Shown piece after piece: positions 35,167-38,502 of a stretch of 64,000 nt of DNA. Both the position numbers and the translations under genes were made by a program. Each line of letters starts with the position of its first letter. Within the stretch, counting starts at the first letter, position 1. Origin of the DNA: Natrinema sp. DC36 (GTDB taxonomy: Archaea > Halobacteriota > Halobacteria > Halobacteriales > Natrialbaceae); contig NZ_CP084472.1 of the NCBI RefSeq assembly GCF_020405225.1, positions 2,294,001-2,358,000 of the forward strand. The letters are read 5' to 3'. The notes under the pieces are model-generated. The model saw only the letters and a list, made by a program, of their open reading frames with translations, ran no database searches and had not been told where the DNA came from.

Positions 35167-35868
35167 CTACGCGTCGTTCGCCGCTGCGACGGTTTCCCGA
35201 ACCGCCTCGATACCCTCGTCGTGTGCGAGGTCGCCGACGACGATCACGTCGGCGTACTGGGCCATCGAGTACGCGGAGTCGTAGTCGTGAATGCCGCCGC
35301 CGTAGAACAGCGTCGACTCGTCGATGGCTTCGGCGGCGGCCTCGACGACGCCTTCGTCGCCGAGCATACCGGAGTACTCGACGTAGACGATCTCCTGGCC
35401 GAACATGTGTTCCGCGACCGTCGCGTAGGCGGCGACGTCGTCGGCGCCGAGATCGCAGTCGGCCTCCGTCAGCTCCGCGACGTCGGCTTCGGGGTTCATC
35501 ACGACGTAGGCCTCCGTCGTCGTCCGGTCCCAGTCGAGGTCCCCCTCGAGTCGGACCCACTCCTTGTGAGCTTCGGTGATCCAGAACGGCGAGCCGGCGT
35601 TGAAGACGGTCGGAATGAGGTAGCCGTCCAGCGCGTCATCCTCGAGGACGACCTCGGGGTTCGATGGCTCCTGATAGAGCGCGACGTCGTGTTCGGCACA
35701 GGCCTCGATGACCGCGCTCATGTTCTCCTCGGTGATGCCCATGGTGCCGCCGACTTCGATCGCGTCGGTCCCGGTCGCACAGAGATCACCGTAGGTCACG
35801 CCCGCCGGTAACTCCTTGTCCGGATCGAGCTTGAGAATATGGTTCCAGTCGTCCCAGGGGGTAGTCAT
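35167..35868 (-). CDS. geranylgeranylglyceryl phosphate synthase
   Basis: This 233-residue TIM-barrel prenyltransferase makes the first ether bond of archaeal lipids from sn-glycerol-1-phosphate and geranylgeranyl diphosphate. It matches the haloarchaeal GGGPS/PcrB form: [16 protein letters not shown] at the N-terminus, [14 protein letters not shown] near 33, [15 protein letters not shown] near 84, [10 protein letters not shown] near 167 and the phosphate-binding [14 protein letters not shown] with [10 protein letters not shown]. The start at 35868 begins MTTPWDDW. It is monocistronic as far as can be seen. Confidence 0.92.
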
Positions 35869-36116
35869 ACTGCGTCGTTTCCCGACAACCAGCAAAAGCG
35901 CTACGAAACGACCCCCGTCTCGAGAACCTCACAGTCGAACTCGAGAAGGGGTCGAGATCGGATTCGACCTGTCGGCCGCTCGCGCGCCACACGACGAGGC
36001 CGGTCGCGTTCGATCTCGGTCTCCGATCGCGGCCGACCGAACCGTGACGCGGCGGTGAGTCGGCGATCTCGAGGCGGCTGCAAGTGCTCGGTGCACTCGG
36101 CTCGATTACGCCGTCA

Positions 36117-36534: not shown

Positions 36535-37725
36535 CTAGACGCCCTGACTCATCAAGTGGCTGCGCAACACGTCGGCCTCCTTGTTTCCGGATCCCGTGTT
36601 GACGATGACGACCGTCTCGTCGCCGTCGAACGCGCCGCGTTCCGCGAGCTCCCACGCGCCGCTCGCCGCCGCCGCCGCGCTCGGAATGAGTTCGAGTCCC
36701 GTCGTCTGGGCCACCCGGACGGCGGCCTCGAGGATGTCCGGGTCTTCGGTCGCGACTGCACCGCCGTCGGTCTCGCGGAGCGCCTCGAGGATTCGCGGAC
36801 TCGCCGCGGGATCGGAAATCTCGAGTTCGCCACAGATCGTGTCGGGGTGCTCGACCGGGTTGTGCTCGTCGCGGTCGTCGTCGAACGCCTCGACGATCGG
36901 CGCACAGCCCGACGCCTGGGCGGCGTAGAGGGCGGGCAGGTCGTCGATCAGACCCAGTTCCCGAAACTCGCGTGCGGCTTTGGCGAGTCCGACGAGCCCG
37001 GTACCGGCTCCCGTGGGGTAACAGATCGCGTCGGGAACGTCCCACTCGAGCTGTTCTGCAATCTCGTAGAACAGCGTCTTCGCGCCCTCGTGGCGGTAGG
37101 GCGTGTCGAACGATCGGAGGGAGTACCAGTCGTCGTGTTCGGCCACCCCCTCCTCGAACGCGCCGGCGGCGTCGCCGAACCGGCCGCCGACGACGTTCAT
37201 GTCGCCGCCGTGGACGTTGACCATCGCCTTGTTCGTAAAGCCGGATCGGGAGGGGAGATACGCGTGCGAGTCGAGCCCCGCTCGGCCCGCGTAGGCCGCG
37301 ACGGCCTGTCCGCCGTTGCCCGTCGAGGGGAGCGCAACGTCGCTCGCGCCGTGATGGACGGCCGCGGTGACGGCCACCGACGCGCCGCGATCCGTGCTCG
37401 AGCCGGTCGGATTCCGGCCGTCATCTTTGATCAGCACGCGCCCGACGCCGAGTTCGGCAGCCAGATCGGGACAGTCGACCAGCGGCGTCGCTCCCTCCTG
37501 GGTCGTCACCGCCGACTCGCGAGCGAACGGAAGCAGTTCCGCGTAGCGCCACTGGGAGTCGAACGGCCGGTCGGCGAGCGTCTCGCGATCGAGGTCGATC
37601 GCGTCGTAGTCGTAGGTCGGATCGAGCGCGCCGCCGCAGTCCGGGCAGCGGTGGGACTCGGAAGCGTCGACGGTGGCCCCGCAGTCGACGCACTCGAGGC
37701 CGGCGAAGGCGGCTGTCGTCTTCAT
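36535..37725 (-). CDS. threonine synthase-like PLP-fold protein lacking the Schiff-base lysine
   Basis: This 396-residue protein has the full architecture of archaeal threonine synthase. A four-Cys zinc ribbon (C12, C15, C27, C30) is followed by a fold-type II PLP domain with the conserved start GATPLVDCPDLAAELG near 78 and the C-terminal NTGSGNKEADVL. However, the active-site segment reads NPTGSSTDRG (105-114) where threonine synthases have NPTGSFKDRG, so residue 111 is Thr instead of the lysine that binds PLP. The phosphate loop is STGNGGQ rather than the usual GNTS type. No frameshift is visible and the rest looks well maintained. It may bind ligands without PLP catalysis or use an altered chemistry. 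The start at 37725 begins the zinc ribbon. Confidence 0.85.
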   Translation of the reverse strand: MKTTAAFAGLECVDCGATVDASESHRCPDCGGALDPTYDYDAIDLDRETLADRPFDSQWRYAELLPFARESAVTTQEGATPLVDCPDLAAELGVGRVLIKDDGRNPTGSSTDRGASVAVTAAVHHGASDVALPSTGNGGQAVAAYAGRAGLDSHAYLPSRSGFTNKAMVNVHGGDMNVVGGRFGDAAGAFEEGVAEHDDWYSLRSFDTPYRHEGAKTLFYEIAEQLEWDVPDAICYPTGAGTGLVGLAKAAREFRELGLIDDLPALYAAQASGCAPIVEAFDDDRDEHNPVEHPDTICGELEISDPAASPRILEALRETDGGAVATEDPDILEAAVRVAQTTGLELIPSAAAAASGAWELAERGAFDGDETVVIVNTGSGNKEADVLRSHLMSQGV

Positions 37726-37909: not shown

Positions 37910-38086
37910 TCAGTTGTCGCCGGATTTCGACTGCCACTCGTATCCGCGGCGTTTGGCGGATTTGCCGAAGCCACACGACGAACACTCTTTCTTCTTGGTA
38001 TGATACGATTTCTCTCCGCAGCGACGACACTTCGTGTGGGTCGTCTTGTTCTTCTTTCCTTGGCTCGGGGTTCCTGCACCAGTCAT
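37910..38086 (-). CDS. rpl37e: 50S ribosomal protein L37e
   Basis: This 58-residue zinc-ribbon ribosomal protein contains [20 protein letters not shown] (residues 20-39; two CxxC pairs), the basic [14 protein letters not shown] core and N-terminal [15 protein letters not shown], exactly the L37e plan. It is basic, unlike its neighbours. Its ATG overlaps the lsm stop codon by ATGA (38083-38086), the usual archaeal lsm-rpl37e pair. Confidence 0.95.
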
Positions 38087-38310
38087 GGAGTGATCGAAAC
38101 GACGTTATCGCCGCGTATAATGGTTGTGTCTTCGACCGGCGGCTCCTCTTCGACCTCGCCGCCGATGGGGATCGTCACGTCCTCGAGCACCAGATTCATG
38201 TGCTGATCGTAGCCCGCGAGCTCGCCGAGATACTCGTCACCACTCTTGAGCCGTACCGTCACGCGTTCGCCGAGCGACGCCTCGAGGACGTCCAGCGGTC
38301 GTCCACTCAT
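38083..38310 (-). CDS. lsm: Sm-like archaeal protein (LSm)
   Basis: This 75-residue RNA-binding LSm protein probably assembles into a ring and acts in RNA metabolism. Sm1 is visible as [39 protein letters not shown], with the uridine-binding [11 protein letters not shown], and Sm2 as [11 protein letters not shown] at the C-terminus. It is the first gene of the two-gene operon with rpl37e. The start at 38310 (MSGRPLDV) is fixed by the Sm1 N-terminus; longer in-frame extensions look noncoding. Confidence 0.95.
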
Positions 38311-38502
38311 ACGCAACACCGCAGGTGATGGACACTTAATCGTACCGGTCCGGAGCCCGATTCCGGCTGAATGATCGACACGACCATCTGCCGCGAGAAC
38401 TGGCGACACAGCACGCCTATTCAGTCCGGTGATTTCGAGGCCGCAGCGGGCGAGCGTGGGGGAGACGAATACCACGACCAGATCTCACACACCGAAACAG
38501 CG

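Follow-up and report, generated by a model that had tools for sequence, protein, structure and literature searches.

The window analysed here, a 64,000-nucleotide stretch of the Natrinema sp. DC36 genome, carries on its minus strand (as is the case for all window features given below) a gene for a threonine-synthase-like protein of 396 amino acids that has no PLP lysine (36535..37725). The gene is supported by its open reading frame, by matches to PALP and NF006050, and by an AlphaFold model; its frame is intact from ATG to stop. Upstream lies a gene for an LSm protein (38083..38475; Pfam LSM), a syntenic marker in Natrialbaceae, and downstream one for a PcrB-family, GGGP synthase-like protein (35167..35895; Pfam PcrB), which likewise serves as a syntenic marker.

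A first-pass annotation of this stretch had reported a zinc ribbon and a complete fold-type II domain, and both were found: Cys12, 15, 27 and 30 make up the ribbon C12-x2-C15 ... C27-x2-C30 (37636..37692), and the PALP domain is full (Pfam, 217 bits vs a cut-off of 35). The ribbon cysteines are conserved in at least 83% of lysine-less and at least 95% of lysine-bearing relatives. Reading the gene from ATG to stop also confirmed the reported active-site motif NPTGSSTDRG (residues 105-114; 37384..37413), with clear AGC-ACG codons and no frameshift. Here, T111 (codon ACG, 37393-37395) replaces the Schiff-base lysine, and S110 (AGC) stands where phenylalanine is usual. Sequencing error or recent mutation was ruled out, as the SST of this motif is common to two congeners from other assemblies (95% and 93% identity); more distant congeners carry SVT, SVA, SRT, SVR or TSK. 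By comparison, residues 134-140, STGNGGQ (37306..37326), are equivalent to the STGN loop of ThrC, with the A135 of lysine-bearing proteins changed to T, and residues 239-243 (36997..37011) are equivalent to the PLP phosphate-binding loop, which reads GAGTG in the window protein, GGGVG in lysine-bearing relatives and GNAGN in ThrC.

The AlphaFold model (pLDDT 93) has threonine synthases as its closest solved structures (PDB 1v7c, 2zsj, 2d1f, 2c2b; Z 40-46 over 326-389 residues), and the protein is 31-34% identical to prokaryotic threonine synthases. It shares the zinc ribbon with haloarchaeal ThrC, and the NPTG-DRG motif frame with ThrC. Unlike ThrC, it has an altered phosphate loop and lacks the Schiff-base lysine, and it scores 153.2 bits against the ThrC equivalog TIGR00260, below the cut-off of 167.1; of the marks of a functional ThrC, it thus has the fold-type II PALP domain but neither the lysine nor the TIGR00260 score. 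ThrC, in turn, is without a second residue set that is specific to the window family. Against the 'threonine synthase' equivalog NF006050/PRK08197, the window protein scores 341.3 bits, above the curated cut-off of 303. Lysine-bearing haloarchaeal orthologues in this equivalog share its locus (at most 79% identity to the TFK members) and, unlike the window protein, keep F110-K111, A135, K215, G240 and G307; all six of these residues are changed in the window protein. Two hallmarks of a pseudoenzyme are present, namely an otherwise intact homologue that misses an essential catalytic residue, and a gene that is maintained by selection (dN/dS 0.19, equal to the lysine-bearing value).

Distribution and number of lysine losses

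In a comparison set of 194 family members from Halobacteria (five further Natrinema TSK proteins were considered besides), 94 have the normal F-K and 100 are without the lysine, which is replaced by 14 kinds of residue (T, A, R, L, V, D, N, H, Y, F, E, I, Q, G) although the flanking NPTG and DRG are nearly invariant. The absence of lysine is far beyond chance. Sampling across the phylum recovered the family from almost every haloarchaeal genome. A pattern search across the class detected non-lysine forms whose codon begins with a base other than A in 138 of 391 genomes (one of these hits is likely due to chance); forms with ACN or ATN codons, including the T111 of the window, fall outside this count and are added to it. 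A lysine-less copy is carried by at least one third of the sampled Halobacteria genomes.

In Natrialbaceae, lysine-bearing copies (Natrialba, Natronococcus, Halopiger) and lysine-less copies (Natrinema, Natronorubrum, Salinadaptatus, Natrarchaeobius) both lie in the order LSm - gene - PcrB or beside the same markers. In other families, both forms are found near a DtxR-like regulator, a GDT1-type antiporter, a LysE transporter and an HD protein. Because of these common loci, the two forms are regarded as positional orthologues, and the prospect, raised in the first-pass annotation, that all homologues at this locus might carry lysine is dismissed. Outside Natrialbaceae (e.g., L086, L095, L201, L211), the run is family gene - DtxR/Fe-dependent repressor - GDT1-type antiporter - LysE - HD, a possible metal-related context; the neighbours examined (LSm, PcrB, DtxR, GDT1, LysE) indicated no clear function. 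A few family copies are frameshifted, either C-terminally (L057, Natrinema hispanicum DSM 18328) or internally (L184, L187, L176), and these are either assembly errors or early pseudogenes.

Since the outgroups have lysine, lysine is taken as the ancestral state. On a tree built without the motif columns, the lysine label requires at least seven changes, five to six of which are forced by strongly supported branches, and a single lysine-less clade is rejected by the AU test both with all columns (p 8.9e-6) and with 34 discriminating columns removed (p 1.7e-53). The PLP lysine has thus been lost at least five times. Clear separate cases are SVA (L154-L156), SLT/SRT (L171-L173), TFR (L166) and TCN (L086), and the lysine-less Natrialbaceae are compatible with one loss (p 0.53). 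The proposal that the S-T motif marks a separate haloarchaeal clade was not borne out, as the lysine-less proteins do not form one clade. One ancient lysine-less clade, as suggested by FastTree, was ruled out by the mixture-model tree and the AU tests, and the FastTree grouping is best seen as a pull from parallel active-site changes.

Active-site remodelling under purifying selection

The lysine was not lost alone. Ten active-site positions are near-invariant in lysine-bearing proteins (F110, K111, A135, T205, K215, M218, G240, M247, G300, G307), with F110-K111, A135, K215, G240 and G307 found in 96-100% of members, and most of the ten are changed in lysine-less proteins inside and outside Natrialbaceae. 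The changes form a graded series: among the ten positions, TCN is altered at F110-K111 alone; the TFR lineage is part way (K111, A135, T205, M218, G240 and G307 altered); SLT/SRT are remodelled further than TFR; and the remaining lysine-less lineages are mostly fully remodelled. Sign tests of parallel change comprised five independent pairs, too few for significance, and the direction was almost never reversed in the output seen. The alignment does not support a migration of the PLP lysine, as no column gains a lysine in the lysine-less proteins; the nearby PLP-binding lysine for which the first-pass annotation had allowed finds no support in the sequences.

The TSK proteins of Natrinema (L015, L043, L031, L034, L049) and the TVK proteins of G185 and G188 (L299, L300) have the lysine while most other active-site residues are changed, so that the lysine alone is not diagnostic of activity. 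They are either intermediates or proteins that regained the lysine, and the TSK codons (ACG AGC AAG vs TCG AGC ACG) are consistent with both. Divergent lysine-bearing copies with NPTNTFKDRG were also observed in two genomes that hold another family copy (L237/L312 in G023, contig C3; L231/L303 in G048), and their second residue set, described below, is also partly different.

Lysine-less proteins are as constrained as lysine-bearing ones. Among close pairs, median dN/dS is 0.19 in Natrinema, 0.15 in Natronorubrum and 0.20 in other lysine-less proteins, vs 0.19 in Natrialbaceae and 0.22 in other lysine-bearing ones (overall range 0.15-0.21 vs 0.19-0.22). Pooled values (0.49 vs 0.28) were discarded, as they mix in saturated distant pairs; close pairs are equal. 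The 'retained but changed role' that had been suggested for this gene is supported by purifying selection equal to that on lysine-bearing relatives, a conserved locus, a canonical ThrC elsewhere in the genome and the lack of a substitute lysine.

The family also conserves a second layer of residues (N170, R182, P294, D295, G299, E302, M392, G395), mostly absent from ThrC. In the window protein it comprises a small-domain part from N170 to R182 (37180..37218; 100% and 99% in lysine-less proteins, changed in 18 relocated lysine-bearing copies), the stretch P294-D295-T-I-C-G299-x-x-E302 (36820..36846; P294, D295, G299 and E302 at 100% in lysine-less proteins, changed in relocated lysine-bearing copies), and a C-terminal tail R388-S-H-L-M392-x-x-G395 (36541..36564). 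The layer is kept in 95 of the 100 lysine-less proteins, none of which has more than two of the eight residues changed, and in the 76 lysine-bearing proteins outside the relocated clade a mean of 0.013 of the eight is changed; single-copy lysine-bearing proteins have it intact. In one clade of 18 lysine-bearing proteins, 6-8 of the eight residues are changed in all 18, and the members whose neighbours were examined sit away from the ancestral locus. All nine searched genomes of this clade hold a second copy in which 7-10 of the ten active-site positions are changed and the second layer is intact, while other genomes of the clade show lysine-less motif matches. Both residue sets were picked after grouping, so the missing 'both lost' class arises partly by construction; the choice of residues does not account for the finding that a copy retaining the second layer accompanies precisely the clade in which this layer is gone. 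The relocated clade is one lineage, and the reciprocal loss may hence be a single event.

A probable retained second function and its alternatives

The window gene probably encodes a pseudoenzyme from the threonine-synthase family of fold-type II PLP proteins, in which the enzyme half of two ancestral functions would have been discarded and the other kept. The ancestral haloarchaeal protein may have combined two separable functions: that of a PLP enzyme, itself unproven for the lysine-bearing form, and a non-catalytic one that would use the family-specific residues N170, R182, P294-E302 and R388-G395. Many lineages, including the Natrinema-like host of the window, would have dropped the former and kept the latter, which makes the window protein a candidate stripped form that presumably neither forms an internal aldimine nor carries out PLP chemistry. 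Where a separate, relocated lysine-bearing copy stands beside a lysine-less one, the activity would come from the relocated copy, in which the second set is gone. What the second set most likely does is bind, either to another protein as partner or to a ligand other than PLP, and the protein may act as a regulatory subunit. More tentatively, and with somewhat less confidence than doubt, the family as a whole may be a near-universal haloarchaeal moonlighting PLP enzyme, whose optional catalysis was discarded at least five times independently with similar remodelling, whose second-site function was retained, and whose functions were split in two-copy genomes.

Some of the same observations could be read differently. 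For the second layer, the chief rival reading is an altered subunit interface that avoids mixed oligomers: its changes in the relocated lysine-bearing copies would keep these from forming heterodimers with the lysine-less paralogue, rather than reflect a loss of function. Charge-altering changes (N170E, R182E, E302A), seen in genomes where the presence of both copies was confirmed, speak for such an interface, but it leaves unexplained both why lysine-less proteins are retained and why the second layer is near 100% in single-copy ones, and it is considered unlikely. Somewhat less probable still is that the lysine-less proteins bind PLP or a PLP-amino-acid adduct non-covalently, and so sense or carry PLP or amino acids or serve as a regulatory subunit for them. 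The window protein does retain S134-x-G-N137, G239, G241, G243 and T377, in the lysine-less Natrialbaceae N137 and T377 each stand at 91% and the glycine loop is partly kept, and the K87T structure of tryptophan synthase beta (2tys) has ligands in its active sites; in the wider lysine-less set, however, G240 is almost never kept, and in the main group outside Natrialbaceae N137 falls to 64% and T377 to 44%. As the lysine is one of about ten active-site residues lost together, a role in binding a partner or another ligand is more probable than plain PLP sensing.

Slow decay under relaxed constraint, with no function left once the enzyme activity became unnecessary, would account for active-site positions that drift freely (14 residues at position 111), for the greater divergence of the lysine-less set (mean column entropy 1.37 vs 0.75 bits in lysine-bearing proteins) and for frameshifted copies such as L184, L187 and L057. 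Yet a dN/dS of about 0.19, the same as in lysine-bearing proteins, dozens of positions at 95-100% (some above their conservation in lysine-bearing proteins) and the persistence of the gene at its locus in long-diverged genera make decay quite improbable. The same free variation between related species is unlike a specific new catalytic site, and it argues against lysine-less proteins being active enzymes with a different, lysine-independent chemistry; even with the fold intact and the cleft residues R211 and D112-R113 at 93-100%, this is the reading given least credence. A pseudoenzyme that keeps a non-catalytic second function is the preferred reading.

Pseudoenzymes in general are already known, and searches of the open-access literature found no paper on this family as one. 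The nearest precedent in terms of function, by analogy, is TSB-like of core eudicots, a eudicot-specific, non-catalytic paralogue of tryptophan synthase beta with two key residues changed that activates the alpha subunit (PMC12727527), i.e., a relative of a PLP enzyme that has no activity of its own and acts as an allosteric partner. Unlike in TSB-like, the PLP lysine itself is replaced in the window family, and repeatedly so, at an orthologous archaeal locus. Two further precedents, the trypanosomatid DHS paralogue (PMC3663545) and the AdoMetDC prozyme (PMC5201418), are paralogues without catalysis of their own through which a partner is activated. An inactive paralogue is kept beside an active one there as well, but these proteins have other folds, and in many haloarchaeal genomes the inactive form is the sole family member.

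Consequences for annotation and for Haloferax

With its repeated loss of the Schiff-base lysine at one orthologous locus, its graded series and its reciprocal two-copy genomes, the family offers a natural experiment in which catalysis and a second function come apart, and the tractable archaeon Haloferax makes it possible to test that function. Among haloarchaeal proteins annotated as 'threonine synthase', many, some of them above the NF006050 cut-off, are probably unable to make threonine, which affects metabolic models. NF006050/PRK08197 accepts lysine-less proteins (the window protein at 341 bits and L108 at 325 bits, cut-off 303), and their public annotation is for this reason probably wrong.

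The 5.1 Mb host genome has 11 PALP-family matches, and the further canonical ThrC for which a check had been proposed is present among them, with NPTGSFKDRG and 284 bits against TIGR00260. In Haloferax, the canonical ThrC adjoins a serA-like gene, and synteny suggests that thrC3 is this copy. The sole published phenotype found concerns thrC3 (HVO_2969): with a transposon in this gene, Haloferax volcanii requires Gly/Ser/Thr (PMC4300041); the remaining paralogues in H. volcanii thus do not replace thrC3. If thrC3 is indeed the canonical copy, the lysine-less paralogue in Haloferax does not substitute for it. A further ThrC-like paralogue, with NPTGCFKDRA, was observed on a secondary contig of the host genome (L004, C2:256781-257917).
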